38,637 nucleotides of DNA from Tannerella sp. (GTDB lineage Bacteria; Bacteroidota; Bacteroidia; Bacteroidales; Tannerellaceae): NCBI GenBank assembly GCA_031265585.1, contig JAISCL010000359.1, forward strand, positions 1-38,637. The letters run 5' to 3'. The position numbers and the translations under genes are program-made. The notes beneath the pieces are model-generated. The model was not told the origin of the DNA and ran no database searches. It was given only the letters and a program-made list of their open reading frames with translations. Below are positions 8,865-37,035 of the stretch, piece by piece; the first letter of the stretch is position 1, and every line of letters starts with the position of its first letter.

Positions 8865-9869
8865 ATGAGAATTTATACGTTGTTGATTTGTATATTTTCT
8901 TTTTGCTGTGTATCCATTTATTCAAAAGAAGTCGCTAAGCCTAAGGCCGGCGAAGGCGTATACCGGTTTCTGATCAATAACGGTCGTAGTCCTGATAAGT
9001 ATTATGACGCGTTTATTGAACTGAACAAAGGGAAACTGGGTAAAAACAATACCTTAATAAAGGGTGTTTTTTATACTTTACCTCCTTTATCAAACGACGC
9101 GAATGAAAAGAAAGATACAGCAACAAAAGGGAATCGGAAAAAAGAGCTGCTTTTCGGAAGGAAGTACGAAGAATATACAGTTAATTCAAGCAAGTTGAAA
9201 GGTGCGACCTTTTACCTGGCAAGCGGTCACGGCGGTCCCGACTGCGGGGCTATCGGTATGGCCGAAGGCAGGGAAATACATGAGGATGAATACGCGTATG
9301 ATATCATGCTGCGTTTAGCACGTAACCTGATGATGGAAGGTGCAACGGTGCACATTATTATACAGGACAAAAAAGACGGTATCCGGGACGAACGGTTCCT
9401 GACTAACAGTAAAAACGAAACCTGCATGGGCAAAGAGATCCCGCTGAATCAAAAAAAACGCCTGCAGCAACGATGTGACGCAATCAATAACCTGTACAAT
9501 AAATCGAAAAACAACTACCGGCGAGCTATTTTCATTCACCTGGACAGCCGCAGTAACAGCAGTCAGATGGACGTATATTTTTTCCACCAAACCTCCAGCA
9601 CGGACGGCAAACGCCTGGGAAACACCTTTCGGCAAACATTCAAGGCACAATACCAAAAACACCAGCCCAACCGCGGCTTTTCCGGCACAGTCGGCCCCCG
9701 CGACCTGTACGTACTGAACAACAGCAAACCGGCCGGCGTCTTCGTAGAACTGGGCAATATCCAAAATTCGTTCGATCAGCGGCGTTTTTTAGACGTCTCA
9801 AACCGCCAGGCGCTGGCCAACTGGATGTGCCGCGGATTCCTCGCCGACTACGAAGATTCGAGAAAGTGA
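8865..9869 (+). CDS. N-acetylmuramoyl-L-alanine amidase (Amidase_3)
   Basis: 334-aa ORF with N-terminal signal; LASGHGGPDCGAIG, EDEYAYDIMLRLARNLMMEGATV, FIHLDSRSN, VFVELGNIQNSFDQRRF. Confidence 0.88.
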   Translation: MRIYTLLICIFSFCCVSIYSKEVAKPKAGEGVYRFLINNGRSPDKYYDAFIELNKGKLGKNNTLIKGVFYTLPPLSNDANEKKDTATKGNRKKELLFGRKYEEYTVNSSKLKGATFYLASGHGGPDCGAIGMAEGREIHEDEYAYDIMLRLARNLMMEGATVHIIIQDKKDGIRDERFLTNSKNETCMGKEIPLNQKKRLQQRCDAINNLYNKSKNNYRRAIFIHLDSRSNSSQMDVYFFHQTSSTDGKRLGNTFRQTFKAQYQKHQPNRGFSGTVGPRDLYVLNNSKPAGVFVELGNIQNSFDQRRFLDVSNRQALANWMCRGFLADYEDSRK

Positions 9870-9874
9870 AGATA

Positions 9875-10687
9875 TTATTTTAAGTGGAATAAAATCATTC
9901 CGTCTATACAATTCAACATATAATAGCCGGTAAAGACAAATTGTCCTGCCGGAGAATTATTCCTTTTTATAGAATAATCAAAAGGAGTCAAATACTGATG
10001 CAAAGACAGGTAGGATTCGTTTGTTTGGAGAATCTCCGGGAAACCATGTAACAGGTGCCAGATTCTTTTTACGCTCCAGTTCTCCCAATCTATCAGGCCT
10101 TGATAATCCCGGATATTCTCGGCTCTTACGGTCGGTGAATTTGTCGGCTGGGGGATGGAGGATCTGTTTTTTATATTGCATAGCGCTTTAATCATTAGTT
10201 TTGTGCCGGTACAAACAGCCTCTTTTTTTAAATCTTCCAGTTTTGCACCCAAAGGAATCCTGAATTTTTCTTGAAGCAGGATCTCCCCGGCATCTTCTTT
10301 TTCATTAAGCGCATGAATCGTTACGCCACTTTCCGTCTCCATGTTATAATATATCCAGAACCATGGGTTAGGGCCTCTATAGTTGGGGAGAAGGGATGGA
10401 TGAAGGTTTAAACTGCCGTATTTTGGTAATGAGTAGATTTCTTTTTTAAGCAAAAAAGGCATTTTGAATATCGCAATGACTTCCGGCTCTTTGCTTTTTA
10501 TCCAGTTGAACAGTTCCGAATCCTGTGATTTCAATTCTTTATATGGAATATCCCGCTTTCCGGCATATTGTTTTAATTCGTCTGATGGCCGGCAATTTAG
10601 AATCCCGACAATATATAACTGATTGCATGCATTTAAATCCGAAACAAAAGACGAATACCCTGTTGTGATGATCAATACTCTTATCAT
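9875..10687 (-). CDS. Formyltransferase-fold enzyme (Fmt/GART-like), last gene of the RiPP-like operon
   Basis: 270-aa ORF; LNLHPSLLPNYRGPNPWFWIYYNMETESGVTIHALNEKEDAGEILLQ contains the N/H (NLHPSLLP) and D (EDAGEIL) formyltransferase landmarks. Confidence 0.85.
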   Translation of the reverse strand: MIRVLIITTGYSSFVSDLNACNQLYIVGILNCRPSDELKQYAGKRDIPYKELKSQDSELFNWIKSKEPEVIAIFKMPFLLKKEIYSLPKYGSLNLHPSLLPNYRGPNPWFWIYYNMETESGVTIHALNEKEDAGEILLQEKFRIPLGAKLEDLKKEAVCTGTKLMIKALCNIKNRSSIPQPTNSPTVRAENIRDYQGLIDWENWSVKRIWHLLHGFPEILQTNESYLSLHQYLTPFDYSIKRNNSPAGQFVFTGYYMLNCIDGMILFHLK

Positions 10688-10703
10688 GACTTGTATTTAA
10701 TAG

Positions 10704-12032
10704 TTATAGATACAAGTATGAATACGCCTTTATTTCATAAGGAATGCCATTATTCGCACTGATCTCATCTACTAACTGGGAGAAATCGCTATCATCCATA
10801 TAGCGTGACAGGTTAATGACCGGGCAGCCGTCTTTCAGGAATTGAACCGGGTCACTGATGCGTCCGTTTTTACAGGCATTTTTGTAAAGTGTAGATCCCG
10901 GGAAGGCAATAATCATATCTAATGAGATGGAAGAATGTTTTTTGTTTTTTTGCCACCAGGATAATGTTCGGTGGGCTGATTCGTTTGTTTCGTATTCATC
11001 ACCAATAATGATGGTGGAACGGGTATCTAAACCTGTATTAATCGTTAAATTAAGCGCCTGCTCTACCTGTTCGATCGTAATCTGTTTACGCATGCTTTTG
11101 AGTATCCGGTTATCAGCGCTTTCAATACCCAGGAAAATATAACGGCAGTTACTTCCTTTCAAGGCATCAATAATTTCCCGGTTGACACAGTCGACTCTTA
11201 GCTGGATGGACCAGATGAAATCATATTTTTTTGCCCGCCTGCAGAATTCCAGGACCCGTTTATTGTCGGATGCAAATAATTCTTCCCGCAGTGCGATGTA
11301 ATTTATTTTGAAATGCCGCGTCAAAAAATCTATCTCTGCAAAAATAGAGTCTAAGGATCTTTGGCGGTATTTACTGCCCGTCGGGTGAAAACAGAATGTA
11401 CAGTTATATTTGCAGGAGCGTCCTCCGATAATAGCAACCGGCGTATATTTCACTCCGTTTTCCACCTCTCCGTTTGTGTTTAAATAGTTGTCGTAATCGA
11501 AACCGAGGTAGTCAGGAAAAGGAATTGTATCTAAATCCTGAATTTCTTTTCGTGGAGCTGTCCGGTAATATTTACCATCTTTTAAATAGATTAATCCGGT
11601 CACATTTTCAACTGGTAACCGTTCGGTCAGGGCATTAATCAGTTCGGGTACGGTAATTTCACCTTCCCCGATTACCCCGTAATCGACAATCTCAAGCGCA
11701 GTCATTGCATTTTCAGCATCAGATGTAATCATTCCTCCTCCCGCAATTGAAATAATGGAAGGTTTAATCTCTTTTGCCATCCTGAATACCGGATCAATTT
11801 CCGGGAATTGTCCGGAGATACCGCCCACTCCTATTATGTCAATGTGATTATTTTCAATGAATGTTTTCAGGATATTAAAACATTCTCCGTCAATATGATT
11901 AAGATTCGCGGTAAATACATTTGCTATCTTCGCCTGTTTAAGCGCTGATGATACATACAGTGTCCCTAACGGCATAATATATCCGCATTTTTTTGTAGAG
12001 AAATAACGGGGTACAACTAATAATACATTCAT
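10704..12032 (-). CDS. B12-binding-domain-type radical SAM protein
   Basis: 442-aa ORF; N-term MNVLLVVPRYFSTKKCGYIMPLGTLYVSSALK plus VDYGVIGEGEITVPELI; radical SAM cluster motif CKYNCTFC. Confidence 0.88.
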   Translation of the reverse strand: MNVLLVVPRYFSTKKCGYIMPLGTLYVSSALKQAKIANVFTANLNHIDGECFNILKTFIENNHIDIIGVGGISGQFPEIDPVFRMAKEIKPSIISIAGGGMITSDAENAMTALEIVDYGVIGEGEITVPELINALTERLPVENVTGLIYLKDGKYYRTAPRKEIQDLDTIPFPDYLGFDYDNYLNTNGEVENGVKYTPVAIIGGRSCKYNCTFCFHPTGSKYRQRSLDSIFAEIDFLTRHFKINYIALREELFASDNKRVLEFCRRAKKYDFIWSIQLRVDCVNREIIDALKGSNCRYIFLGIESADNRILKSMRKQITIEQVEQALNLTINTGLDTRSTIIIGDEYETNESAHRTLSWWQKNKKHSSISLDMIIAFPGSTLYKNACKNGRISDPVQFLKDGCPVINLSRYMDDSDFSQLVDEISANNGIPYEIKAYSYLYL

Positions 12033-12043
12033 TTTTCCTGATT

Positions 12044-13417
12044 TTATTTGACATTCAATATCGTATAGTCAGATCTTATCCGGCTGATATTTTCTATCGG
12101 TGAAACGCCGAAACGTTTTTCATATAAACGCTCGAACCTTTTCAGGATGATTTTTTGAACAAAATCTTTTGTGAAGTCGCAAAAAACATCCCGGTATTCT
12201 TCCGGATAAGCGTTATACAAATAGAAACAGCCGCCGCCACAATTCCATTTAACGGTACAGTCCTTGCATTTTTCCTTTGAATATACATTTTCGTCAAGAA
12301 GATTCCTAAAAATCTCCCGGTCGACCGCTATTTTGTGATTACCAGTCACTGTGTTAGCGAAGACTTCTCCATAAATAACTTTATGATAAGCTGTATCGTT
12401 TGAAGTTGAAATGCAATAACAGCCGCTTAACTTGCCGTTTGCCGTGAGGCAAAATTCACCGGCACATGCGCGTTCTGTCGGATATACGGTTCTTAAATAG
12501 GGAAATGAAGTCAGGCTTTTACCTTTTACATGCACTTCTCTGTCAATTGCCAGAAAATTATCCGTATAGATTTTCAAGAAACGGCTTAAATCTGTTGATT
12601 TCGGGAATAAGTCGGCTGCCGTCACAGGTTCAAACATCATATTGGTTATTTCCGGGAATTTTTCATCCAATTGATGATACATCTCAAGCATCCGTTCCAC
12701 ATTATCCGGTGTTATTGTTGCGTTTATTTGTGGAATAATATGATGAGAAATAAGTTTTTGTATGTTATTTATAATCGTTTGATATTGTCCGCGCTGTTTG
12801 TTTTGTATTTCTTCCAGGATATCAAATGATATGCTGATGTTAATATTGTTTTGACGGATGAACGCCAGCATCGTATCAGTCATCAAGGTTCCATTTGTAA
12901 TAATTGTAAAGTCAATGTGTTTAGCATTAACTTTCGCCTTTTGTCCGGCATAAATAATGCTATCATGCACTAAATTCCATGACAGCATGGGTTCCCCGCC
13001 TCCCATATAAGAGATGGAGAGCGGTCTGTCTTGTTTTTTAGAATTGATAAAAAAATCAATTGCATATTTTAATTTTCCGATATCAAGTTCTATGTCGGAA
13101 CGTCCTTTTGCAGAATAGCAATAGCTGCAGTTAAGATTGCACTTTTGATTGGGCAAAACGGTCAGTAATGGATAGTCTTCAATATTTCTTACTTTTCGGG
13201 CGCGATTTTTCAGCGGCACAAAGTCCGAAAGTTCATTTATGATATGCTGTAATGCCCGGTCTGTAATTTCTTCATCGTCCAATATCTTTGCCGTTTCATT
13301 CGTTAACCATACCGCCTTGCGCGTCATTGGAGAATATAACAAACAGAGTTTACCCGGAGGAACAGTCATATCATAAGGATAAACAAATAAGTCCTTTTTG
13401 TTTAAGATTTTATACAT
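12044..13417 (-). CDS. Radical SAM/SPASM peptide maturase, paralog 6
   Basis: 457 aa; CNLNCSYCYSAKGRS; GGGEPMLSW; DILEEIQNKQRGQY; SPASM CKDCTVKWNCGGGC. Confidence 0.92.
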   Translation of the reverse strand: MYKILNKKDLFVYPYDMTVPPGKLCLLYSPMTRKAVWLTNETAKILDDEEITDRALQHIINELSDFVPLKNRARKVRNIEDYPLLTVLPNQKCNLNCSYCYSAKGRSDIELDIGKLKYAIDFFINSKKQDRPLSISYMGGGEPMLSWNLVHDSIIYAGQKAKVNAKHIDFTIITNGTLMTDTMLAFIRQNNINISISFDILEEIQNKQRGQYQTIINNIQKLISHHIIPQINATITPDNVERMLEMYHQLDEKFPEITNMMFEPVTAADLFPKSTDLSRFLKIYTDNFLAIDREVHVKGKSLTSFPYLRTVYPTERACAGEFCLTANGKLSGCYCISTSNDTAYHKVIYGEVFANTVTGNHKIAVDREIFRNLLDENVYSKEKCKDCTVKWNCGGGCFYLYNAYPEEYRDVFCDFTKDFVQKIILKRFERLYEKRFGVSPIENISRIRSDYTILNVK

Positions 13418-15434
13418 CTTCTATGGGAGCTAAGTAATATCCGGTTCTAAATAGCCATAATAAAAGGGACACTTGGTGAAAATGACATTCTTCTATTACG
13501 TCATTATGTCTGGTTGTCCCTTTTGTGATTTTAGATAATGGAAATAATATATTGATCTTTCCGATCTTCCAGTTACAACTGTCTGCAATATTATCAGTAG
13601 GTAGATAGCCTGCGAGTATATTCCATGCGATCATTTGCCGGTGTCTTAAATGATTGAATACATCTCCTAACAGATCGAAATGATAATCGTCAATGGACTT
13701 GTTCCTTGCCTCAATTAATTGTAATCCCATGCTATTAAGTATAAGTATCAATGTATCAACATAAGATAAAATAGTTTGCCTTCTATTATCCATTTTATAT
13801 CGATGCCATGCTGTTTCTATTTTTTCCAATGTGAAATTGTAACTCGGCAAAACTGTCTTGTAGTTATTTATGCCGCTTTTGGATTTTTCCTCATATAACA
13901 AATCCAATGATTTTGCTATAAATTGGGCAGTTTCCAGATTATAATTTATATCAATTGTAGTATTTTTAAATCCAAAAAACCGGATATTGGAATAACGTCG
14001 TTTGTCTTCATGTATTTTTTCTATGTATTCGGAGAATATATGATATTCCGTAACGACCGGAATTTCCTTTTCATAAACTTCCATTGGTAAGTGGGTTGCT
14101 AAAATGTAATTCCTGTCGGAGTTTTCAGAACATATAGCAATAGTTGAGACCGCATTTTTTAAATTAATCAGATTGATTATTTTTTGTTTAGCTTCTTCTT
14201 CGAATGGTGATATCTCAATAAAAGAACAGGAAATATCCGGAATCTGTTTATATCCGGAATATCTCGTTTTAAATAAATTAATACTGTCCTTGTTGTCTGT
14301 GATAATTGTTATTTGTGTTTTGTTAAGGCTATTAATTTCATCAAAATTTGCAAAATGACAGACTTTTATGGCTGTTTTTAACAATTCCATCCCCATCATA
14401 TTGAATCCCAATAGAACGATATTTACAAAATTACTAGAAAAAGGGGTTATTTTGTTTTGTAACAGAGAATCATATTGAAAAGTTGATTGGGGGGCCAAAA
14501 TCTTAGATAAATGTCCATATCCCCATATTTTACCTGCCCAGATTTCGTAAAAATTGAAAGGGAAGAGGTGGATTAACGGAAAATTTTGCTCCTGAAAATA
14601 TTTTAGCATGAAAGAATCATCCCAATAAGAAAGAAAGCATTTTATTGTTTCTGTTTTTTCATATTTTTTCTCCGGAATTTTGTCTTTTAGTATTCTTATA
14701 ATATTATCAATGATTAGAATGTTGCCGGAATCACACCACTCTATCGAATTATCTCCAAGAATTACAATATGTCTACAAACTTCCAATTTTAATACTGATA
14801 ATTCTTTTTTATCATTAATGTCTCCTTTATAGATGATTATTCGCTTTCTTGTTTTATTATCCAAAAAACCAAGTTGTGTTTTTATTGTTTGTGGAGAATG
14901 ATTACTTAGTATTACAATGCGTCTTTGCTCATTGTTTTTATGTTGATCAACATTTATCAGATATTGTACGACAGAAAAGATCAACTCATTTGCCCCAATT
15001 ATTACATCATGCTTCTGTAATGATTTATAACGAATCAATCCTTTCTCCACAACAGATATTCTTCGCTGAAGTAAATTATTGAATGTAGAAATGAGCAGTC
15101 CGCTGAAAACAATAGAACCAATAAAAGAAACAAGTATTGAAAAGAATTTAAAGTGGATAGGTTCCGGTGCATTATCAACTCCACTGGTTTGTGAAAAGAG
15201 GCTATATATCTTTAATATAAGCTCGGGATTGTGGTCTTTTCTGATCATGTTGGCTAACAAAGATATATAGATGATCGTGAAAACGACAACAACTAATAAA
15301 AGACTTAACTGGTATTTGGATTTTCCTTTTAATAGATTGTCTAATTGGTTATTGCAGCGTAATATATACCATAATGCTGCAATAGTGAAAGATAAAGAAA
15401 AAATAATCAATAATATCCAATTTAATATTTCCAT
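13410..15434 (-). CDS. Membrane protein with tandem TrkA/RCK-like domains (CASTOR/POLLUX ion-channel-like)
   Basis: 674 aa; three N-terminal hydrophobic segments, then HDVIIGANELIFSVVQYLI and NIVLLGFNMMGMELLKTAI Rossmann-like starts; possible RyR-like C-terminus. Confidence 0.7.
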   Translation of the reverse strand: MEILNWILLIIFSLSFTIAALWYILRCNNQLDNLLKGKSKYQLSLLLVVVVFTIIYISLLANMIRKDHNPELILKIYSLFSQTSGVDNAPEPIHFKFFSILVSFIGSIVFSGLLISTFNNLLQRRISVVEKGLIRYKSLQKHDVIIGANELIFSVVQYLINVDQHKNNEQRRIVILSNHSPQTIKTQLGFLDNKTRKRIIIYKGDINDKKELSVLKLEVCRHIVILGDNSIEWCDSGNILIIDNIIRILKDKIPEKKYEKTETIKCFLSYWDDSFMLKYFQEQNFPLIHLFPFNFYEIWAGKIWGYGHLSKILAPQSTFQYDSLLQNKITPFSSNFVNIVLLGFNMMGMELLKTAIKVCHFANFDEINSLNKTQITIITDNKDSINLFKTRYSGYKQIPDISCSFIEISPFEEEAKQKIINLINLKNAVSTIAICSENSDRNYILATHLPMEVYEKEIPVVTEYHIFSEYIEKIHEDKRRYSNIRFFGFKNTTIDINYNLETAQFIAKSLDLLYEEKSKSGINNYKTVLPSYNFTLEKIETAWHRYKMDNRRQTILSYVDTLILILNSMGLQLIEARNKSIDDYHFDLLGDVFNHLRHRQMIAWNILAGYLPTDNIADSCNWKIGKINILFPLSKITKGTTRHNDVIEECHFHQVSLLLWLFRTGYYLAPIEDV

Positions 15435-15436
15435 AG

Positions 15437-16702
15437 TTAAACAGTTAACAAAGTTTTTACTAACATATTTCTTACAAAATCACAATGTATTTCAAAATAT
15501 TCCGGAGGGTAGGCGTATCGCGCCAATAAACATCCTCCGCTGCAATGCCATTTGGCAATGCAAGACTGACAGGTTGTATGCCGGTAAACGTTCTTATTCA
15601 TGATCTCCTGTAGTTTTTTTGTGTTTATCATCACTTCGTTGCCGGATGTCACAGAACCATAATGGAACTGTTCATAAAAATCTTCTTTCGGAGAAGAAAT
15701 GCGTGAACAGGCCGTTATTTCACCTTCGGGTGTAAGGGTGAATTTGCTTAAACAAGCACGTTCTTTACATATTTCTGCACTGTTTACGAACGTATTCCCT
15801 ACATAGAAGTTGTTTTTCAATCCCAATTTATATGCGGAGAAATAGGAGTCGGTAAAAATTGTGTAAAAATACTTTAAATCGGCAGGCTGTTTAAATAACG
15901 AACGGTTCAGTACCGGTTCAAACGCAATTCCCCCTAAAGCCGGAAAACCGGTGATTATTTCTTCTGCCATTTCATTCATACGGTGAACGTTTAATGGCGT
16001 AATTGTACTTCTTATACCGGGATAAATATCGTTTTCTATGAGGTAATTAATTCCTGCACAAACTTCATTGTACTTACCGCGCTGTTTATTTTGAATATCT
16101 TTCAGGACATCAAAAGAAACGACTAAGTTAACATTGTACTGTTTGATCATCTCCAGTACTTCCTGATTTAGCAGTGTTCCATTCGTCACAATTCCATACT
16201 TAATAGAGATGTTATATCGGCTTGCTAAATAATCTGCATGCATAATGGCCTCTTTTAACAAAGGAAAAGACAGTAAGGGATCTCCGCCGCCGGAAAAGGT
16301 CACCTGTAATTTTTTGTCTTTTTTTTGTGCGTTTATGAAGAAATCCAATGTTGTCAGCAGTTTATTCCTGTCGATAGACTTGCCGGAGCGCCCTTTAGCT
16401 GAATAACAATAGGAGCAGGAAAAATTGCATATATAATTGATAAGGATATTTAACTCGGTAGTTTCGTCGATACTTTTTATCTTATGTAATATTTTTTTTT
16501 GTTTGAATAGAAATCCGGAATCGGTTGATAAATCTTTGTTCCTGAAAAAAGTAGCATTATTTGCAAAAGAGTATACGTCTTTTTCCGATACCTGTAAGTG
16601 CATACCTGCGAAAGGAGCATATACCAAACAGTTCTTATCCGGTTCTGCCATTTCTGTATGGATAACAAATATTTCTTTTTTGTTTAAGGAAGGTATATTC
16701 AT
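15437..16702 (-). CDS. Radical SAM/SPASM peptide maturase, paralog 5
   Basis: 421 aa; CNFSCSYCYSAKGRS; SGGGDPLLSF; DVLKDIQNKQRGKY; SPASM CQSCIAKWHCSGGC. Confidence 0.92.
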   Translation of the reverse strand: MNIPSLNKKEIFVIHTEMAEPDKNCLVYAPFAGMHLQVSEKDVYSFANNATFFRNKDLSTDSGFLFKQKKILHKIKSIDETTELNILINYICNFSCSYCYSAKGRSGKSIDRNKLLTTLDFFINAQKKDKKLQVTFSGGGDPLLSFPLLKEAIMHADYLASRYNISIKYGIVTNGTLLNQEVLEMIKQYNVNLVVSFDVLKDIQNKQRGKYNEVCAGINYLIENDIYPGIRSTITPLNVHRMNEMAEEIITGFPALGGIAFEPVLNRSLFKQPADLKYFYTIFTDSYFSAYKLGLKNNFYVGNTFVNSAEICKERACLSKFTLTPEGEITACSRISSPKEDFYEQFHYGSVTSGNEVMINTKKLQEIMNKNVYRHTTCQSCIAKWHCSGGCLLARYAYPPEYFEIHCDFVRNMLVKTLLTV

Positions 16703-16706
16703 GTGT

Positions 16707-18029
16707 CTATTCTATATTACAAGTGTTGTTTACGCCTAATTTCCGAAGGATTAGTTCTTTCGAAAAAGTTCGTGTGAAGTCACAAATGATGTTGCGAACG
16801 GATTTGTCGTATTCGCGATTTTGCACCATGCATCCTCCTCCGCAATTCCATTTTACGAAACAGGCATTACATTCGGGATAATCATCTGTTGTATCTGTAT
16901 TTATAAGTTGTTGATACTTGTCGTAATCGAATGTTAAACGGCCGGCTTTATTGACTTCACCATAGATGCAGTTATGATAATGAGTATCCTGCGGTGAAGA
17001 TATTCGATGGCAAATCGTAAATGTACCTTCGGGGGTAAGGCATAGCTCTCCAAAACAATAACGCTTAACAATGGAATTAAGATTTCGCAGTGGAGCGCAT
17101 TTCAGTTGTTTTCCTTTTTGCTGAGCCAGATCAAGTGCGTCAAAAAAAAGTTCCAGGTATCTTTTATAGAACATTTTTGTTTTTTCAATATCATGAAAGG
17201 TATGTTTATCTGTGACAGGGTCAAACATATAACAGTTTACTCCGGGGAATCTCCTGATTAACTCCTGTACCATTTTGACCATTAGTTCTACGTTTAATGG
17301 AGTGATCATGGCTCGTATTTCAATATAAAGGCCAGCTTCCGATAACCGGTCAATAGTTTTACAAACCTTGTTGTATTGTCCCCGTTGTTTGCGTTGGATC
17401 TCCTCCAGTATTTCGAACGAAACGCGAAATTGTACCTGATAAGTAATAAACGTTTGAAGCATTTCTTCATTGAGAATGGAGCCGTTCGTGACGATTTCAG
17501 TTATCAAGTGGATTCCCTGCTTTTTTGCCAATGAATGTGAATATTCAATGCCAAATTTCAACAGTTTCCATGAGAGTGTCGGTTCACCGCCTCCTAAAAA
17601 GTTGATGAACAGTCTTTTTTCTTTGATTCGCTTTTCGTCAACAAAATAATCCAGCGTAGTTTTCAGTTGTTCCATACTCAACTCTTTGTTGGAGCGACCT
17701 TGTGCAGAAAAGCAATAGGAGCAGGAAAAGTTGCAGCTATAATTGGGTAAAATAGATAGGCGCAGGTATTCGTCAGGATGTTGAATACGATATATATGTT
17801 TCCCGTATAAAGAAGTGTCTGATAAATAATTTAAGTGTGTGAACAAATCTTCATCGCCCTGATTGTTTTCAATTACGTTCTCAAGTCGGGCAGGATATTC
17901 GGCATCGGTTTTCATCACATAGCCGGTCAATGGTGCATAGAGCAAATAAGTACCGGTTCCCTGATCTTTTTTGGATTCATCCGGAGGAATTACAAATATT
18001 GAACGGCGTAGCAGGTTGGGATATTGCAT
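16707..18029 (-). CDS. Radical SAM/SPASM peptide maturase, paralog 4 (start trimmed from ORF-track 18098)
   Basis: CNFSCSYCFSAQGRSNKE; GGGEPTLSW; EILEEIQRKQRGQY; SPASM CNACFVKWNCGGGC. MQYPNLLRRSIFVI aligns with sibling N-termini and begins 4 nt after paralog 3's stop. Confidence 0.9.
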   Translation of the reverse strand: MQYPNLLRRSIFVIPPDESKKDQGTGTYLLYAPLTGYVMKTDAEYPARLENVIENNQGDEDLFTHLNYLSDTSLYGKHIYRIQHPDEYLRLSILPNYSCNFSCSYCFSAQGRSNKELSMEQLKTTLDYFVDEKRIKEKRLFINFLGGGEPTLSWKLLKFGIEYSHSLAKKQGIHLITEIVTNGSILNEEMLQTFITYQVQFRVSFEILEEIQRKQRGQYNKVCKTIDRLSEAGLYIEIRAMITPLNVELMVKMVQELIRRFPGVNCYMFDPVTDKHTFHDIEKTKMFYKRYLELFFDALDLAQQKGKQLKCAPLRNLNSIVKRYCFGELCLTPEGTFTICHRISSPQDTHYHNCIYGEVNKAGRLTFDYDKYQQLINTDTTDDYPECNACFVKWNCGGGCMVQNREYDKSVRNIICDFTRTFSKELILRKLGVNNTCNIE

Positions 18030-18033
18030 ATTT

Positions 18034-19380
18034 TTATCCGGCGTGATTATGAATGAGTTCTTCCAGTGTAATTCCATGTTGATCAATATAATCATCATTG
18101 AGCTTTTCTAACAGCAGTTGATGGGCAAGGGCGCGTGTTGATTCACATATAATATTTACTATTTCTGTGGGATATTGTTTATTGTTTGCCAAACAACCGC
18201 CTCCGCAGTTCCATCTGACAAAACAGGAGGTGCAGTTTGGATTTTTCCGGGCGGTTTCTTTTTCTTTCAAACGATAGAACTTATCAAAATCAATATTAAC
18301 CGTATTTTCTTTATCCACAAAACCATAAATATGATCTTCATAATCATCCTCTTGCGGAGAAGATACTTCCAGACAAATAGAAAAAGTTCCCTCCGGTGTT
18401 AAACAGAATTCGCCATTACAATATCTTACAACAGTTGTATCAAGGCTTCTTGTAACAGCATTTCGAACGTCTTTACCATATTTTTTTGCCAATCTCCCGG
18501 CTTTTAAAAATGATTCGTTATAAATTTGATAGAAATTAGAAGTGTATTCCGGCTCATGAAAAGTATCCGTACTCGTGATAGGATCAAAATAATAAGTGTA
18601 GATAGCCGGAAAATATTTTATCATTTCCGCTGTCATTTCCTCAAGCAGATGGACGTTATCCGGCGTAATCATTGAACGAACTTCACAGGGTATACCTTTG
18701 CTCAACATTGCATTTATTGTTTTACGGACTCTTTGATACTGTCCACGCTGTTTATTTTGAATATCTTCCAGAATTTCAAATGAAATGCGTGGCATCACAT
18801 GATATTGTGATAATGTATTGAGTATATCTTCATTTATAATAGAACCATTTGTGATAAGTCCGAAAAATAATTCGATCCCCCGTTTTTTGGCAAGAGATGA
18901 CGCATATTCGATGCCATATTTCAGTAAATCCCAGGACATCACAGGTTCTCCCCCTCCAACAAAAGTAATTTTAAGATTTTTATTTTTCGATCCATTATTA
19001 CTTATAAAATAATCCAAAGTAGCCTTTAAATGCGACAAAGATAATTCTTTGTTCGAGCGTCCTTTTGCTGAAAAACAATAAGAACAGGAAAAATTACAGG
19101 TAAAGTTTAGTAATACATACAGCACCTGATAATCTTCCAGATGTTGTATCGTTTCTATTTGATTTCCGGATGTATCTTGCAAGGTCTCAAGCAGACCGGC
19201 TATTTCGGTATCCGCTTCCGCATGCTTAATGGCCTTATTTATCTGCTCAACGGTTTTATTATCAGCCAGCAACATATTTCCTGATAAAGGTGCATAGATA
19301 AGATAGAAATCATCCGGTCTTTGCCCGAAATGATGGCCGGTCGGCAGTGTGTATATATGATAGTCTGTTAATGTCATCAC
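18034..19380 (-). CDS. Radical SAM/SPASM peptide maturase, paralog 3
   Basis: 448 aa; CNFSCSYCFSAKGRSNKE; GGGEPVMSW; EILEDIQNKQRGQY; SPASM CTSCFVRWNCGGGC. Confidence 0.92.
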   Translation of the reverse strand: MMTLTDYHIYTLPTGHHFGQRPDDFYLIYAPLSGNMLLADNKTVEQINKAIKHAEADTEIAGLLETLQDTSGNQIETIQHLEDYQVLYVLLNFTCNFSCSYCFSAKGRSNKELSLSHLKATLDYFISNNGSKNKNLKITFVGGGEPVMSWDLLKYGIEYASSLAKKRGIELFFGLITNGSIINEDILNTLSQYHVMPRISFEILEDIQNKQRGQYQRVRKTINAMLSKGIPCEVRSMITPDNVHLLEEMTAEMIKYFPAIYTYYFDPITSTDTFHEPEYTSNFYQIYNESFLKAGRLAKKYGKDVRNAVTRSLDTTVVRYCNGEFCLTPEGTFSICLEVSSPQEDDYEDHIYGFVDKENTVNIDFDKFYRLKEKETARKNPNCTSCFVRWNCGGGCLANNKQYPTEIVNIICESTRALAHQLLLEKLNDDYIDQHGITLEELIHNHAG

Positions 19381-19384
19381 ATCA

Positions 19385-20737
19385 TTAAGTATTAGCGCCG
19401 TTCAATATTTCCATGATTGGTTTTCCTGTCCCGTTTTCATAATCCAGCTTCGTGCGATTCCAGATGATTTTTTTTGTGAAATTACGGATGAAATCACATT
19501 TTGCTTTTTTTCTTGTGCGATCATCCGATTTGTTCGTATGGATACATCCTCCTCCACAATTCCATTTTGCAAAACAATCTTTACATTCCGGATGGTTGTG
19601 TACATCTTCAGCTAACAGTTCAGCTAATTTGTGCTCATCAATGTCTATTTCTCCGGTTGGATGTATCTGTCCGTACACGTAATTTTTATAATGCTGCATT
19701 TCAGGAGAAGATACACATGGGCAAACTGTAATAGAACCGTCGGGACAAACCGCAAATTCCCCGGCGCAATATCGCTCTACCGAACAGTCAACATTACGGA
19801 GTAAACTACAGGATAATTCTATATCATGCTTTTCTGCAAGTTCATGTGCCGGAATGAAATTAGCAATAAAATCATCGTAAAATATGGTATCTATGTTCCG
19901 GGATGACCAGTCATTCAGTTCCATCAAGGGTTCAAACGACAAGTAATCAATCTGTGGAAATCGACAGGTAATATCTTCGATCATTTCACACTGCCGATGT
20001 ACGCTATGAGGAGTGATAACCGTATTAATTGAAAGCGGCGCACCATTTTCAACAAGCATTTTTATCTTTTGTGATACCGTATCAAAATGTTTTCTTTGCA
20101 GATTCTGAATATCTTCCAGTATATCGTATGAGATGACCAGTTCAATATTGTTTTTCAGGATGAAATCAATATCTTCCGCCTGAATTAATGAACCGTTGCT
20201 GACAATCTTAAACCACAAATCAAATCCTTCCCTATCTGCCAGTCTGTTCGCATGATCTACGGCTTTTTTAATAAGTTTTTTCGAGATCATTGGTTCTCCA
20301 CCACCCAGGAAAGATAATGATAGCTGATTTGTACCTGTTCGTTTTCTATTGATGAAATAATCTAATGCAGCAATTAATTTATTTTCGTCGATTTCAACGT
20401 TAGAACGGCTGGAAGCAGAATAACAATAGCTGCAATCGAAGTTGCATATATTGTTGAGTAATAGTGATATATTTATGAAATCAGAAGTCTTTCGAATACG
20501 TTTAGAGAGCGCTTCTTCCGAAGGACTTGTGTCGAGTAAAGCCGAAACGACCTCTTTTAAAGGTTCATCCGTATTTTTGCCGGTTAACAGGTGTTTCATT
20601 TTTTCGAGATCTTCTCCTGTCGCTATCGTAGCGATTGTTGAGAGCGGAGCGTAAAGCAGGAAAAACCGGTTTTTTTCCACAGGCAAAAAGTTGTGCAGTG
20701 AGCATGTATATATGTTGTTGTCAAATAAACTGTTCAT
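19385..20737 (-). CDS. Radical SAM/SPASM peptide maturase, paralog 2
   Basis: 450 aa; CNFDCSYCYSASSRSNVE; GGGEPMIS; DILEDIQNLQRKHF; SPASM CKDCFAKWNCGGGC. Confidence 0.92.
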   Translation of the reverse strand: MNSLFDNNIYTCSLHNFLPVEKNRFFLLYAPLSTIATIATGEDLEKMKHLLTGKNTDEPLKEVVSALLDTSPSEEALSKRIRKTSDFINISLLLNNICNFDCSYCYSASSRSNVEIDENKLIAALDYFINRKRTGTNQLSLSFLGGGEPMISKKLIKKAVDHANRLADREGFDLWFKIVSNGSLIQAEDIDFILKNNIELVISYDILEDIQNLQRKHFDTVSQKIKMLVENGAPLSINTVITPHSVHRQCEMIEDITCRFPQIDYLSFEPLMELNDWSSRNIDTIFYDDFIANFIPAHELAEKHDIELSCSLLRNVDCSVERYCAGEFAVCPDGSITVCPCVSSPEMQHYKNYVYGQIHPTGEIDIDEHKLAELLAEDVHNHPECKDCFAKWNCGGGCIHTNKSDDRTRKKAKCDFIRNFTKKIIWNRTKLDYENGTGKPIMEILNGANT

Positions 20738-22064
20738 TTGTTTCTTGTATGTAGGTTGTTCTATTCGTTTTATTTAACCGTTCTTCCAATTGTGACTTTA
20801 ACCAGTCTCGATTAAAGTTGCATACTTCATTTAGATAAGATTCCGGGTATTGATCCGACCGGGTCATACATTCACCTCCGCAATTCCATTTTGCAAAACA
20901 TTCCTCGCATTTCGTCTTGTGTAACAGGTTAATACGGATCAGGTTTTTGAATTTCTCATTGTCAAAAACAACTCCTTTATCCGTTATTTCTCCATAGACA
21001 CATTTTTCATAACGTTCTTCAAGCGGAGACGAAGCACAATGGCAGATAGAAAATGTAGCATTAGGGGTCAGGCACAGTTTTCCCGGACAATATCTTAGTT
21101 TGATCGTATCAATCATTTCATCTAACGAGAACCATATAGACGTCTTGCTTTCTTTATACTTTCGTTTAATTTTTCGGTAATTTTCACCGAATTGACGATA
21201 GAATGAACGCATCGACTCCGGCGAATCAAATTGTGCACGATCTGTCACAGGTTCTAATGTATAGCTTTTTACAAAAGGATATTTATACACTATTTCTCTT
21301 GTCATTTCGTTCATCCGGTTTACACTTAATGGAGTAATTGTTGAGTTCAGCATGATGGGAACGCCGGCATTTCCATAAGTTGTGATTGTCGATGCAACTT
21401 TTTCATAATGACCGCGTAAATGGTTTTGAAGGTCTTTCAATGCTTCAAATGATACACATACGCTACATTTATATTTCTTGAGAACATTAAGAATGTCGTC
21501 ATTCACGAAAGAACCGTTTGTAATAATGGAGGTCCATAATGTAAATCCATACTTTAAAGCTCTTTCCTGAGCGTAACAAACTGCAAATTTTGTATTTTCC
21601 CAAGATAAAAAAGGTTCTCCTCCACCTGAAACAAACATCTTTATTGTTTGAGGTTTTATACGTTCGGGATCAATAAAAAAGTCTAATGCCTGCTTCAGTT
21701 TTTCGTTGCTGATAGTCGTTTTTGAACGTCCTTGTGCAGAGTAGCAGTATTTACATTGAAAATTGCATGTCAGAGAAGGCAATAAAGATAAAGTGGTAAA
21801 TTCTTGCGGACTTTGTCGCAGATAGTTACGACTGTCCGGAAGCTCATAAGAACAGAGTTTTTTTATCCATTCTTTGTTTATATCATAAACCGTATTTCGA
21901 ACTAATTGCGGGTCAACAATATGATGGAGTTGATTCAGTTGTTTGTCGTCAATATCACAGCAAAATTTACTCAAAGGTGAATATGCAATATAGCATCCAT
22001 TATTCACCTTTGTGTTTTTTTTATTAATAGAGACAATAAATATTTCGGAATTTTCTAATTTCAT
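20721..22064 (-). CDS. Radical SAM/SPASM peptide maturase, paralog 1 (start trimmed from ORF-track 22103)
   Basis: CNFQCKYCYSAQGRS; GGGEPFLSW; EALKDLQNHLRGHY; SPASM CEECFAKWNCGGEC. Leading MTKSSQAFFFFFT is the translated hairpin/T-tract; MKLENSEIFIV aligns with siblings. Confidence 0.9.
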   Translation of the reverse strand: MKLENSEIFIVSINKKNTKVNNGCYIAYSPLSKFCCDIDDKQLNQLHHIVDPQLVRNTVYDINKEWIKKLCSYELPDSRNYLRQSPQEFTTLSLLPSLTCNFQCKYCYSAQGRSKTTISNEKLKQALDFFIDPERIKPQTIKMFVSGGGEPFLSWENTKFAVCYAQERALKYGFTLWTSIITNGSFVNDDILNVLKKYKCSVCVSFEALKDLQNHLRGHYEKVASTITTYGNAGVPIMLNSTITPLSVNRMNEMTREIVYKYPFVKSYTLEPVTDRAQFDSPESMRSFYRQFGENYRKIKRKYKESKTSIWFSLDEMIDTIKLRYCPGKLCLTPNATFSICHCASSPLEERYEKCVYGEITDKGVVFDNEKFKNLIRINLLHKTKCEECFAKWNCGGECMTRSDQYPESYLNEVCNFNRDWLKSQLEERLNKTNRTTYIQETNEQFI

Positions 22065-22080
22065 CGTAAAAAAGAAGAAA

Positions 22081-22108
22081 AAAGCTTGACTTGATTTTGT
22101 CAAGCTTT
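22081..22108 (-). terminator. Hairpin plus T-rich tract between precursor and first maturase (leaky terminator/attenuator candidate)
   Basis: AAAGCTTGAC (22081-22090) and GTCAAGCTTT (22099-22108) are perfect 10-bp arms with 8-nt loop; minus strand continues TTTTCTTCTTTTTT. Confidence 0.75.
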
Positions 22109-22127
22109 CTTCCGATTAGTCTTTTGA

Positions 22128-22220
22128 TTAGTCTTTGCAACGGCATCCACCACCAAAACAGTCACAGCAATCTTTTACTTTTGCTTTCGCTTTTTTCACT
22201 TTAACTACTTTTGTCAACAT
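22128..22220 (-). CDS. Candidate Cys-rich RiPP precursor, 30 aa: MLTKVVKVKKAKAKVKDCCDCFGGGCRCKD
   Basis: Hand-translated: ATG TTG ACA AAA GTA GTT AAA GTG AAA AAA GCG AAA GCA AAA GTA AAA GAT TGC TGT GAC TGT TTT GGT GGT GGA TGC CGT TGC AAA GAC TAA; Lys-rich leader, five-Cys core, immediately upstream of six rSAM/SPASM genes. Confidence 0.82.
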   Translation of the reverse strand: MLTKVVKVKKAKAKVKDCCDCFGGGCRCKD

Positions 22221-22343
22221 AATACATTAATTTAAAAAAATCCCTACTCTATTCAATAGGCTTTTCGGATACGCCTTATTTAAAATGGTTTTATTGTTTT
22301 GAATATTTCTTATCAGTATATTATTTTTCCCCAAACGTCCTTA

Positions 22344-23087
22344 TTATTTAAAACCGGTTTCGTACAGGATATACAGTAAAAGTATGCCAATCGTGGCGAG
22401 CGCCAGGTATTTTGCGTATTGTGAAGCTTTATAGGCTTTCGATACCTTTCCGCTGTTGAAGCGAGGCTTCACTCTTGATGCAAAAAAAGCAGCCACAAGG
22501 CCGACCGGAAAACAGATCAGTATAGCGATAACGGCAAGACCCATATAATTTGTCGGTCTGCTTTCGCTGTATCGCCTGACTTTTTTATCTCCCTGCGATT
22601 GAAGAGAGGTATCTGTCAGTGTAAAACTCGGTAGATTATATTGAAGAAGCGTGTCTTCTTCGACCGTAAAACTTCCGTTAGGAGAATAAAACAACCCGGA
22701 TAAAGAGAAAATTTCCAATAAATAATGATTAAAGTCTTTAAACGTTCTGTTATCAACGTCTGCTGTAAATTCGGAGAAGGAAGAATCTGAAGCCCATGCA
22801 GAATCTGCCTCATCTAATTGCTTCAACCTGTTGAAGCATGCCTCCAAAGCATCCAGGATAAATTTGAAATAAGATTTGTCATCCGAACCGAATAAAGTTC
22901 TAAGTTTAGTGTTCAGCAGTTCTAAAACATTGCATTTTCTGCCTACGGACATGTTGCCGTTAATCGCTGTATTTACAAACGAAACAAAATAATGTTCTTG
23001 CAGTTGAGATTTTGCGGCATATTTTTTCTCCGCTTTTTTCACCTCATCAATGGCATTTAAATATACAGACAAGTCATTGTATTCCAT
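22344..23087 (-). CDS. CD225/dispanin-domain membrane protein
   Basis: 247 aa; C-term MGLAVIAILICFPVGLVAAFFASRVKPRFNSGKVSKAYKASQYAKYLALATIGILLLYILYE fits the two-TM CD225 pattern (CFPxGxxAxxxSxxVxxxxxxGxxxxAxxASxxAK). Confidence 0.75.
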   Translation of the reverse strand: MEYNDLSVYLNAIDEVKKAEKKYAAKSQLQEHYFVSFVNTAINGNMSVGRKCNVLELLNTKLRTLFGSDDKSYFKFILDALEACFNRLKQLDEADSAWASDSSFSEFTADVDNRTFKDFNHYLLEIFSLSGLFYSPNGSFTVEEDTLLQYNLPSFTLTDTSLQSQGDKKVRRYSESRPTNYMGLAVIAILICFPVGLVAAFFASRVKPRFNSGKVSKAYKASQYAKYLALATIGILLLYILYETGFK

Positions 23088-24989: not shown

Positions 24990-25760
24990 TATGCGCCGAT
25001 ATCAGGTATCGAACACGATAATGGCCAGCAATCCATTCCCTTATCCATGTCGCTCCATCGGTGATAAATACCGGCCGGTGATCCAACCTGCCGTAAGAGT
25101 CGATTATTTTTTGAAGTCTTTCTCCAAAATCGTTGCTGTTTCCCAAACGCGCTGCATATTGTGAGGCAGACAAATAAAAGGAATTACTGTCGGGATTCAG
25201 ACAGTCACTCTCCTTGAAGAGTCTGCCCGGCCTGACTTCTTTCCACGGCTCTTTCTCCCGCGTACACAGCATGGAACCGTCTATCTCCACATAGAGAACA
25301 TCCTCTTTCGATAACGGGGGAAGGATACGTTCTGTCTGCTTCTCTTCTTCCTCTAAAGATTCTCCCACACGATCCGTAACCCGGTAAACCTGTGAAGGAC
25401 TGACCTTGACCCGTGTGAACTTTTCCGGTATCTCCCCGCTCTTTGCAAAACATTCCAAATGGCCTGCATACGTTATCAATGCCTGCATGAATGGACTGAT
25501 CGCAAACCCGTTAACTAACCCCTGCATATAAGGGTGAGATTTGTTGATGTTTATTTCTCCGAATTTGGTAAGCGTTTTTTTTTACGCCGGTCTTGGGTTG
25601 AAGACTGCTCATTCATGTGATTTTCCAAATACAAGCGTCCCAAATCCTGCCATATCTGGTCGAAGAATTTTTCGTAATCATAGAAATTGTCCTTCGCTTT
25701 GAGGGATTCTATTTCCCCGTATCGACTGGCCGCCATGGCTAAATATTCTTCCTTTATCAT
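24990..25760 (-). mobile_element. Truncated ISKra4-like transposase remnant (two frames)
   Basis: 25551..25760 (YEKFFDQIWQDLGRLYLENHMNEQSSTQDRRKKK) continues after an A9 run in a second frame as TLTKFGEININ-KSHPYMQGLVNGFAISPFMQ...LYVEIDGSMLCTREKEPWKEVRPGRLFK...FITDGATWIREWIAGHY then ends abruptly. Confidence 0.65.
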
Positions 25761-25912
25761 TGCTTATAATCTTTTTAATCCTCGCATAGGTAATACTTTT
25801 TGGACAATGCGACAATTTGAATTGAACCCATACAAACCGCCATGCTTTACCTGCAGGTGATGAACCTCTCTGCCAAAAAAGCGTTTTCTCCCTTCGACAG
25901 ACTTTACCGCAA

Positions 25913-27040
25913 ATGAAACCACATTTTGAACCGGCAGACATAATCTGCCGCTTTGGCCCGGCCTTTGAAGAACAGCACCGACCACCCTTTTTTCAGCAAA
26001 AAGCGCTGGAAGCAGTCAGCCTGTGCCGCACGGCAGCGCCGGGCGGACAGAAACAGCAATGTATGCACCGCTGCCATGAACATGTCAGTTACAGTTCCTG
26101 CCGCAACCATCACTGTCCCAAATGTCAGAACAAGGAACGCGAACTGTGGATACGGCAAATCCGGGAGAGGCTTCCCCCGTGCAGGTATTTTCATGTGATC
26201 TTCACTCTCCCGTCCTCTCTGAACGGACTCTTTATCGCCTTTCGGCAGGAAATGCAGGATATCCTTTTCCAGGCTGCCGGGCAAACGCTCGAACAGTTTG
26301 CCGCCATGCCCGCTTACCCGGGCAAACCGGCATGATCGCCGTCCTGCACACCCGGGGACAAACCCTGACGCTGCATCCCCACCTGCACTGTATTTGTCCC
26401 CGATGGCGGTATCAACGGCAGCGGGCAACGGGTTCGGGCGAAAAAGACGGACGGCCGCTCGCCTTTCCTCTTACCCGTCATCCCCATGGCGAGGATTTTT
26501 CGCGAACAGTTCCTCAGCCTGATGTCGAAAATATTGAAGAACAGACCCGGCTGCCGCATACCTTCCGTCCGGGGAAAACACTTCAATATCAACATACAGC
26601 CCCCCTTCAGGGAAATCGACCACTTAATCAATTATCCGGGACATTACACCCATAAAACTGCGATCGGCAATCACCGCATTCGCAACATTGACAGCCGGGG
26701 CATCGTATTCTCCTGTAAAGATTATCGGGACAGGGCCACTGTAAAGGAGATGTTCCTCACGGGCGAAGAATTCCTCCGGTGACTCTGCCTGCATATCCGG
26801 CAAAGAGGGTTCAGGGAAATCCGTTACTTCGGTATTTTTGCCGCCTCCAGCCGTCGGCGGCTCAATTCCGTCAGACTTGCTTCCGGTCCGGCGCCCATTC
26901 AGCCCCGTAAAAAGAAAAACCGGAAAGAGGACGTTCGGGAAACAGTGAAGTACGATTCCTGCCTCTGTCCGGAATGTAAGGAAGGTATCATGGTAACGAT
27001 CGAACGGATCTTTCCGCCGGGCAGACCGCCGCCACGGATG
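25913..27040 (+). pseudogene. IS91-family transposase, multiply frameshifted
   Basis: Zn-binding N-term CMHRCHEHVSYSSCRNHHCPKCQ; HLHCI; INYPGHYTHKTAIGNHRIRNIDSRGIVFSCKDYRD; C-term CLCPECKEGIMVTIERIFPPGRPPP, spread over different frames. Confidence 0.8.
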
Positions 27041-27327
27041 ACGCAAACGAATATCTCCCGAACGCATCTGTGATATCTGTTCCTCCACCGGAGCAGACAG
27101 GCGGGCTATTGCCCCATGCGTAAATACGACTTCGGATAAAACGGAATGAAACGGGAAAAAGACGCTGAACGGATGAAAAAAGGAAGACCGTACCTGAATC
27201 ACCCCTGTTACGGATCGAACAGTACAGCCCCGAAAAGGCCCGACATACCGTAATCCCCATAACAGAAACCGCAACGAAAACACGCTCACACAAACTTTAC
27301 GGATAATGCTTTAATAATGGATTCACC

Positions 27328-27362
27328 GGGCTACATGTTGGACTTTCGGTCACACGTAGCCC
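27328..27362. repeat. Inverted repeat (GGGCTAC...GTAGCCC) after the IS91 remnant
   Basis: gggctac 27328-27334 and gtagccc 27356-27362; may be the element's terminal hairpin. Confidence 0.4.
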
Positions 27363-27396
27363 TGTTGGGTTATCCGGATTGGACGCCTGCCAACGT

Positions 27397-28766
27397 CAGC
27401 CCAATGTCGTCAACTTAAGGCTCATAAGGCACGTTTATAGTTAGTTAACGTATAGAATTTACCATTAAGTGGATGTTTTCTGGCTCGGGAATATTTTCGT
27501 CCGGGCCTGACCGGTTCCAGGTGTTTCCCGAATAAATTTTCCAACTCCATTAAAATAGCTAACGGCTGTTTTTCCATAAACAAACTGACAACACGGTGTT
27601 TGAGCATGCCCAAACTCACATTCCTATTCACACGGTACCGGCTTTTCCTTTGCCTGTTAACGGCTTTAAGACAGGGCTCACTTTGTTTTTCTATCAGGCT
27701 TTGAAGATTCAACAGCAGCAGGCTGGCTGCAAAACTCTGTTCAATACAACCTGACGGATGCCGCTGAACTGTACCGGCTGGAGCTTTTCCTTCAAATGAC
27801 CGTAACCCGTTTCTATTCCCCACCGAAAACCATATACTTCCTTCATCGACTGAGAATCATAAACATGTGAATCATACAGATTAGTGACCGGTACTTCGGT
27901 TTCTCCCGTGTTGAGCATAACCTTGACCATATGTATGCTAAGACCGGTGGTGCTACTGATGACCCTGCCCTTCTCTGCAAGCCTCTTTCTTGAACAATAG
28001 CCCGGATACCACAGTGTGGTCAGATCCTTCCGGGGTAATATAGCCTCTGTCCAGAATCAGCACTTTATCCTCAAAGTCCATTTCTTCCAGTAATTATGCA
28101 TAGGCACTGTCTTCGGATGAACAGCAGGGATGAAGCGCTCCTTTTACAGTCAATTCGTTCAGCACATTATAAAAAAGACAGATACGGGCCATAACGCTTA
28201 CCGGTTTTTCAGCGTGCTGATTACTGGTTCCTCCGAAGGCCTTCTTCAAAGATTCCGTTTGTGGAAGCGGAACGGTACTCCCGTCGACTGCCCACAATAC
28301 CATCCCCTTCCATCGCTTCACGTACGAATCGCAATGCCGGTAAAAACCGTTAACCAACACCCTGTTGCAGGCATAAAAAAAGGCAGGTTTCAGGTTCCCG
28401 CGCTGTTTGCTGAATGCCTGTTTGGTGCAGCTTTCTCCCGGAAAAACATGACTGAAAAAATCCGTTACTCAATACTCAGGCTTCGCTTCATGGCATTGAG
28501 GATCATCAATATCAATACGGGAAAGGTTAATATCCGGCGACGCGTGAAGTCTCTTGCCTTCTCTACCGTATATTTGCTTTTCTCCGCACAGCCGGTAATT
28601 GCTGTTTCCATAAATCTTTTTATTTCATTTATTATTGCTACATTTGCATCTGCCATTGGACTGTTCACTGTGTATCATTTTTTGTTTTCAATTCTAAAAT
28701 AATACTTTTGAATCTATTTCCAATGGCTTTTTTATTATTTTTCCTTAAGTTGACGACATTGGGCTG
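27397..28766 (-). mobile_element. Decayed IS4-like insertion sequence, about 1.37 kb, with 24-bp inverted repeats
   Basis: CAGCCCAATGTCGTCAACTTAAGG at 27397-27420 is the exact reverse complement of 28743-28766; interior pieces KRWKGMVLWAVDGSTVPLPQTESLKKAFGG and SMKEVYGFRWGIETGYGHLKEKLQ in different frames. Confidence 0.85.
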
Positions 28767-37034: not shown

Positions 37035-37035
37035 A

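Follow-up and report, generated by a model that had tools for sequence, protein, structure and literature searches.

A proposed RiPP operon in Tannerella sp. that pairs one five-cysteine peptide with an array of CteB-like SPASM maturases

The stretch of DNA analysed here (the window, 38,637 nucleotides) is contig JAISCL010000359.1 of Tannerella sp. (assembly GCA_031265585.1; Bacteroidales), and its minus-strand operon from 22220 to 9875 encodes a 30-aa peptide followed by a hairpin, six radical S-adenosylmethionine (SAM)/SPASM enzymes, an RCK-type membrane protein, a B12-binding radical SAM enzyme and a formyltransferase (Table 1). On balance, we favour the proposal that this is an undescribed operon for a ribosomally synthesized and post-translationally modified peptide (RiPP), in which non-redundant CteB-like maturases would act in turn on a single five-Cys core. 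The family formed by the precursor and its array looks previously undescribed, and it appears to be a real new peptide-modification pathway.

Results

A preliminary description of this DNA, made from the letters alone, had put forward the RiPP reading, which is now well supported by the recurrence of the precursor and of maturase arrays in the window, in the phage contig G416, in a Lentimicrobium metagenome-assembled genome (MAG; L016) together with genome G327, and in genome G051. A small precursor beside peptide-modifying enzymes, the two conserved together, is thus found in four lineages. Homologous loci lacking the small open reading frame (ORF), which the preliminary description had named as evidence that would speak against it, were looked for, but all the loci found with several maturases (window, G416, L016/G327 and G051) have the small ORF; the five-Cys peptide is, moreover, the sole small ORF common to all of them. 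The number of maturases, which had been considered unusually high for one short peptide, is real and recurs in the other lineages, with five to six per array.

The order-level search set consisted of 393 Bacteroidales genomes, one per species, many of them fragmented MAGs. A degenerate codon pattern of the precursor motif matched in 3 of these (window, G327 and G051), and the reversed pattern used as a control in none, while a profile of 22 array maturases (E<=1e-70) returned the window, G051 and G327 and, further off in sequence, a single enzyme of G207; motif and high-scoring arrays therefore coincide in the same three genomes, the G207 enzyme aside. A scan for maturase relatives found the six tandem SPASM genes of L016, to which the G327 maturases are 96-100% identical, and an IMG/VR contig with the peptide MKIVKVKKAHAKAAGCCDCFGGGCRCNN lying 5′ of a maturase; the type A codon pattern (see below) matched two IMG/VR contigs, which share one peptide and the first maturase. 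The precursor of L016 (MITVVFKVKTVKKGVYACCDHCGGCKCNN) occupies the gap between the second and third maturases, and that of G051 (MITKVVKVKETKKNAHGCCDHCGGCQCNN) came from the degenerate codon pattern. A further precursor, in the congener G008 (MLTKVVKVTKPKSKTDDCCDCFGGGCRCRD), surfaced by chance through a search for the DUF805b RNA, and is followed by a hairpin and by the start of another ORF at the contig edge. A looser motif, tried on 396 genomes of the phylum as a means of finding the precursor outside the order, was set aside, as it matched the window and seven sequences that looked like chance, with two matches in the reversed control; GenBank phages and PLSDB plasmids gave only radical SAM matches of 20-27% identity.

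Two side observations concern more distant relatives. In G207 (L182, G207:C23; 4543-5313 - and 5323-6588 -) the maturase relative lies beside an M42 aminopeptidase gene and has on its other side a row of short Cys/Asp-rich ORFs with a shared 'YVSEL..L' start, adjoined by a tyrosine integrase; this looks like a sister system of one maturase and many precursors. In L002 (G040:C364), a truncated maturase relative (36%) is found next to a 49-aa Cys/Asp-rich ORF (1337-1486 - and 1498-2232 -).

All the precursors have exactly five Cys and a length of 28-30 residues. In the window peptide, residues 1-17 would constitute the leader and residues 18-30 the five-Cys core, within which the GGG lies, so that it is not a leader GG motif. 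The type A core, CCDCFGGGCRC, is identical in the window, G008 and G416, and type B has CCDHCGGC[KQ]C (L016/G327 and G051); the C-terminal CRCKD/CRCRD is found in the window and G008 only, and an NN end in G416, G051 and L016. At the codon level the cores differ mostly synonymously: 7 synonymous changes and 1 non-synonymous in 13 codons between window and G008, 6 and 2 between window and G416 (the latter in the final two residues), and 6 and 1 in 12 codons between G051 and L016. The leaders are more variable than the cores, with 6 synonymous and 5 non-synonymous changes in one comparison and 2 and 8 in another, of 16 codons. As judged from the codons, the pattern in the core is that of purifying selection on a translated sequence; with the homologues at the equivalent place elsewhere, it shows that the 30-aa ORF is a true gene.

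The loci of the two types differ in what surrounds the precursor. Type A comprises the window and G416, where the order is precursor, V1, V2, V3, RCK protein, V5, V6, M42 aminopeptidase, B12-radical SAM and formyltransferase. In type B, L016/G327 has, besides its six maturases, genes for a 185-aa protein and for a short-chain dehydrogenase, and G051 has five maturases, one of which is fused to a homologue (34%) of that 185-aa protein. No gene for an RCK protein, a B12-radical SAM or a formyltransferase was seen in the type B loci (Lentimicrobium and G051). The genes for the extra chemistry which the preliminary description had attached to the operon (possible methylation or other B12-radical chemistry, and N-formylation) occur in the window and the phage cluster, where those steps would be putative; as the three proteins are not universal among the loci, they are better regarded as type-specific tailoring or accessory functions than as part of the core pathway.

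The six SPASM proteins of the window measure 421-457 aa, and all match PF04055 Radical_SAM (41-54 bits, Pfam); in the alignment columns, the CxxxCxxC and the seven SPASM Cys are invariant in these six and in the 22 array enzymes. The maturases fall into a single clade, which divides into sets of orthologues in co-linear order. In the window and the phage, both the best hits and a maximum-likelihood tree match up W1-V1, W2-V2, W3/W4-V3, W5-V5 and W6-V6, with bootstraps of 95-100 and in the same gene order, although the orthologues are only 40-49% identical; the extra maturase of the window lies in the pair W3/W4, as against the single V3. From these five co-linear sets it follows that at least five distinct maturases predate the split between window and phage clusters, and that all have been retained. 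The type B pairs A3-B1, A4-B2, A2-B5 and A6-B4 have bootstraps of 99-100. Approximately unbiased (AU) tests of separate expansions in types A and B were borderline, with p of 0.084 and 0.046, such that a separate expansion of type A (0.084) is not rejected, and an array expansion older than the A/B split is not claimed.

No maturase of the window reaches any NCBIfam cutoff: the PapB model NF047865, the top NCBIfam match for most of them, reaches 90-133 bits where its cutoff is 340, and the SCIFF model TIGR03974 gives the six enzymes 68-114 bits against 425. The nearest solved structure to a maturase is CteB, both by profile (E 2.6e-43) and by fold (E 8e-16), and its deposition names it as an enzyme that forms thioethers; TigE, ChlB, SuiB and anSME come after it. 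An AlphaFold2 model of W4 (pLDDT 88, pTM 0.87) shows a small N-terminal domain, a radical SAM barrel and a SPASM domain, and residues 8-66 form three short strands followed by two helices, CteB being the best fold match for the model as a whole. From what is established for these enzyme families, the most likely chemistry would be the abstraction of H from the core, followed by formation of a C-S bond at the cysteines, and the product would probably be a polythioether, although other SPASM chemistry is conceivable.

The hairpin after the window precursor has a folding energy of -22.2 kcal/mol and a T-run, and is classed as terminator-like. Hairpins stand 3′ of the precursor stop in the five loci examined, unrelated in sequence, with z against shuffles of -5.9, -4.8, -3.2, -4.3 and -5.4. 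A precursor followed by a hairpin is a usual layout in RiPP operons, and the hairpin is best read as a site of partial termination which would leave the peptide in excess of the enzymes. The DUF805b RNA that precedes the window precursor, in its mRNA leader, is found at the same place in the phage cluster, and in related genomes many unrelated genes also carry it, about 20-27 nt 5′ of their start codons; it is a general leader element of the group and not specific to the peptide. Its use as a marker of RiPP precursors was rejected, because the genes that it precedes in this group include those for lipoproteins and HU-like proteins, among others; its fold is no better than that of shuffles.

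All the reported genes of the operon are intact and every one is on the minus strand, consecutive genes are spaced by -17 to +16 nt, with the exception of the 63-nt hairpin gap 3′ of the precursor, and the end lies 5 nt from the stop of a convergent amidase gene (8865-9869 +). The gene list, strand, tight spacing and distance to the amidase given in the preliminary description all hold, and Pfam and NCBIfam return the same domains (radical SAM in six proteins, B12-binding plus radical SAM, formyltransferase and RCK). For maturase 1 the start is most likely 22064 in place of the TTG at 22103, and for maturase 4 about 18017 in place of 18098.

Table 1. Features of the operon and its leader in the window.
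Feature	Coordinates	Strand	Remarks
DUF805b RNA (RF02914)	22241..22277	-	leader of the precursor mRNA; Rfam 41.2 bits (gathering 35.6)
30-aa precursor MLTKVVKVKKAKAKVKDCCDCFGGGCRCKD	22128..22220	-	homologues in other loci; core codon changes mostly synonymous
Terminator-like hairpin, gap between precursor and maturase 1	22076..22113	-	z -5.9; putative partial terminator
SPASM maturase 1 (W1)	20721..22064	-	orthologue V1 of phage contig G416, 43%
SPASM maturase 2 (W2)	19385..20737	-	orthologue V2, 40%
SPASM maturase 3 (W3)	18034..19377	-	orthologue V3, 46%; 48% to W4
SPASM maturase 4 (W4)	16707..18017	-	49% to V3, 48% to W3; additional paralogue relative to the phage cluster
SPASM maturase 5 (W5)	15437..16702	-	orthologue V5, 43%
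RCK-type membrane protein	13410..15434	-	Slo-like_RCK 27.8 bits; G416 homologue at the equivalent place, 31%
SPASM maturase 6 (W6)	12044..13417	-	orthologue V6, 43%
B12-binding radical SAM enzyme	10704..12032	-	PF02310 and PF04055; 64% to its phage-cluster counterpart
Formyltransferase, final gene of the operon	9875..10687	-	Formyl_trans_N PF00551, 74 bits

Among the accessory genes, the RCK-type membrane protein (674 aa, between maturases 5 and 6) has a homologue in G416 at E 3.8e-61 by direct search of that contig, although a short-peptide scan of IMG/VR for it gave no match; no relative was found in the PDB by sequence, and a structure model built without an alignment (pLDDT 37) was discarded. 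The B12-radical SAM protein (PF02310 40 bits, PF04055 64 bits, with the CxxxCxxC as CKYNCTFC) shares 64% identity with its phage counterpart, above any maturase pair, and nothing else in the 393 genomes matches it at E<=1e-60; its reaction may be a methylation or one of the BchE/HpnJ kind. The PDB relatives of the formyltransferase are ArnA, Fmt and the F domain of gramicidin synthase, and its homologue in G416 is shorter. The M42 aminopeptidase of G416 could trim the leader; there is no aminopeptidase in the window operon. No ABC (ATP-binding cassette) transporter was seen among the operon genes or the scanned flanking genes, nor any exporter or GG leader at any array locus. About 13 kb upstream of the window precursor lies a TldD/TldE (PmbA) metallopeptidase pair (35715-38571 -), whose family has RiPP leader proteases among its members; it is probably housekeeping, yet a candidate leader protease.

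The cluster family is rare and has moved horizontally, in one case or more by phage, as follows from its low G+C, the lack of cluster genes after the amidase in two congeners, the transposase remnants and the phage-borne copy. The operon has 31-40% G+C as against 48-58% in the long flanking genes. Three congeners retain the neighbouring A2M-amidase pair (A2M identity 61-67%), and in two of them no cluster genes follow the amidase, while in G008 the contig ends there. The right flank of the window cluster carries transposase remnants, and from 25000 to 28700 there are broken transposase genes (a Y2_Tnp remnant and others) before an L,D-transpeptidase gene. A prophage around the window copy was considered and discarded, no integrase or terminase being seen, and the flanks consisting of degraded transposase and ordinary genes. 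In G416 (L160/L161, IMGVR_UViG_3300024269_003497), on the other hand, the whole cluster of about 11.5 kb is carried as phage cargo, with a tyrosine integrase on one side and UmuCD, terminase and head-tail genes on the other. Immediately 5′ of the precursor, G008 (L199, G008:C36) and the phage (L160, 6090-6452 +) encode a small membrane protein whose C-terminus resembles a CxxC zinc ribbon, and at that spot the window has a CD225-domain protein instead (22344-23087 -).

Discussion

The sequence of events that we propose would begin with a Lys/Val-rich leader bound by N-terminal domains, presumably similar to the RiPP recognition element (RRE), of five to six paralogous maturases, which would act in turn on the core of either type and most likely make thioether (carbon-sulfur) crosslinks at its cysteines. 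In type A only, the B12-radical SAM and the formyltransferase would add tailoring steps, and the hairpin 3′ of the precursor would provide a surplus of peptide over enzyme. The product would be a molecule of fixed structure, such as a cofactor, a metal ligand or a signal.

Several points weigh against this proposal. About four independent lineages are known; the RRE-like assignment of the N-terminal domain derives from the order of secondary structure elements in a model and from the match to CteB; and the type of bond is extrapolated from CteB, with no maturase at a family cutoff. That the ancestral maturases number five, like the Cys, is no more than suggestive and may be coincidence, as the window and L016 have six. 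An enzyme-per-cysteine scheme, in which each of five ancestral maturases would deal with one Cys to yield a fully crosslinked cofactor or metal ligand of fixed structure, transferred by phage among Bacteroidales, seems to us unlikely.

Alternative explanations start from the same loci. Many SPASM peptides are antimicrobial, and a sporadic, mobile island of low G+C, also carried by a phage, would suit a multi-ring bacteriocin, crosslinked in the manner of sactipeptides or ranthipeptides, with the RCK protein serving for immunity or export. However, the core is identical though the enzymes are only about 43% identical, unlike diversifying toxins, the RCK protein is absent from the type B loci, and there is no ABC exporter, no peptidase-containing one (PCAT) and no GG leader at any locus, unlike the clusters in the searched text of Fernandez-Cantos et al. 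(2023; PMC10352776), for which reasons we regard an antimicrobial as rather unlikely. Because the core is near-invariant, and exporter and GG leader are missing, a product of fixed structure is likelier than a diversifying antimicrobial.

Five Cys in 11 residues could also bind metal directly, and a terminator-like hairpin 3′ of an ORF recalls leader-peptide attenuation, such that the peptide might resemble metallothionein or control the operon as a leader or attenuator peptide, while the SPASM enzymes modified another substrate. This appears improbable, given that the maturases belong with peptide-modifying SPASM families, CteB being the nearest, that the peptide is the only small ORF which all the loci have in common, that in L016 it sits within the array, behind the second maturase, and not at its head, and that a precursor followed by a hairpin is a usual layout for RiPP operons. 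Finally, the paralogues could be recent and interchangeable, a matter of gene dosage, with one maturase making all the modifications, as might be thought from the 48% identity of W3 and W4, sister to one phage enzyme, from the variation in maturase number between five and six, and from the separate type A expansion that is not rejected (AU p 0.084). But five sets were distinct before the window and the phage diverged, and all the cluster-binding Cys are kept in every copy, so that a redundant array seems highly improbable.

If our proposal of non-redundant maturases acting in turn is accepted, five to six retained paralogues working on one core of 11 residues would offer a natural system in which to study the division of labour among radical enzymes and their order of action. 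That the core is invariant while no exporter accompanies it speaks for a product of fixed structure and not for the usual antimicrobial role, and from the phage-borne copy it would seem that small-molecule pathways of this kind are spread among Bacteroidales by phages.

With regard to known systems, the open-licence literature yielded no account of an array like this one. The RiPP clusters of Bacteroidales in the survey by Fernandez-Cantos et al. (2023; PMC10352776) mostly have GG-leader precursors and PCAT exporters, and its searched text makes no mention of formyltransferases or B12 enzymes. Those clusters are like ours in order, in the use of radical SAM enzymes and in the small precursor, and ours differ by having neither exporter nor GG leader. 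From the PapB ranthipeptide maturases (NF047865) the present enzymes are separated by scores far under the cutoff, and the CX3D motif of the PapA type is not conserved in the peptides. The SCIFF system has a single maturase and a six-Cys precursor of about 45 aa. SCIFF and its enzyme CteB (PDB 5wgg, 5why; TIGR03974) resemble what is found here in the three-part layout of the enzyme, the seven-Cys SPASM domain and the small Cys-rich precursor, but our loci have five to six maturases and a precursor of 28-30 aa with five Cys, and fall outside SCIFF membership. The pathways of SPASM RiPPs normally use one or two maturases, those with two including HxsB/HxsC, and TrnC/TrnD of thuricin CD. The arrays described here share with these two-maturase systems the participation of more than one radical SAM maturase, and extend it from two enzymes to five or six.

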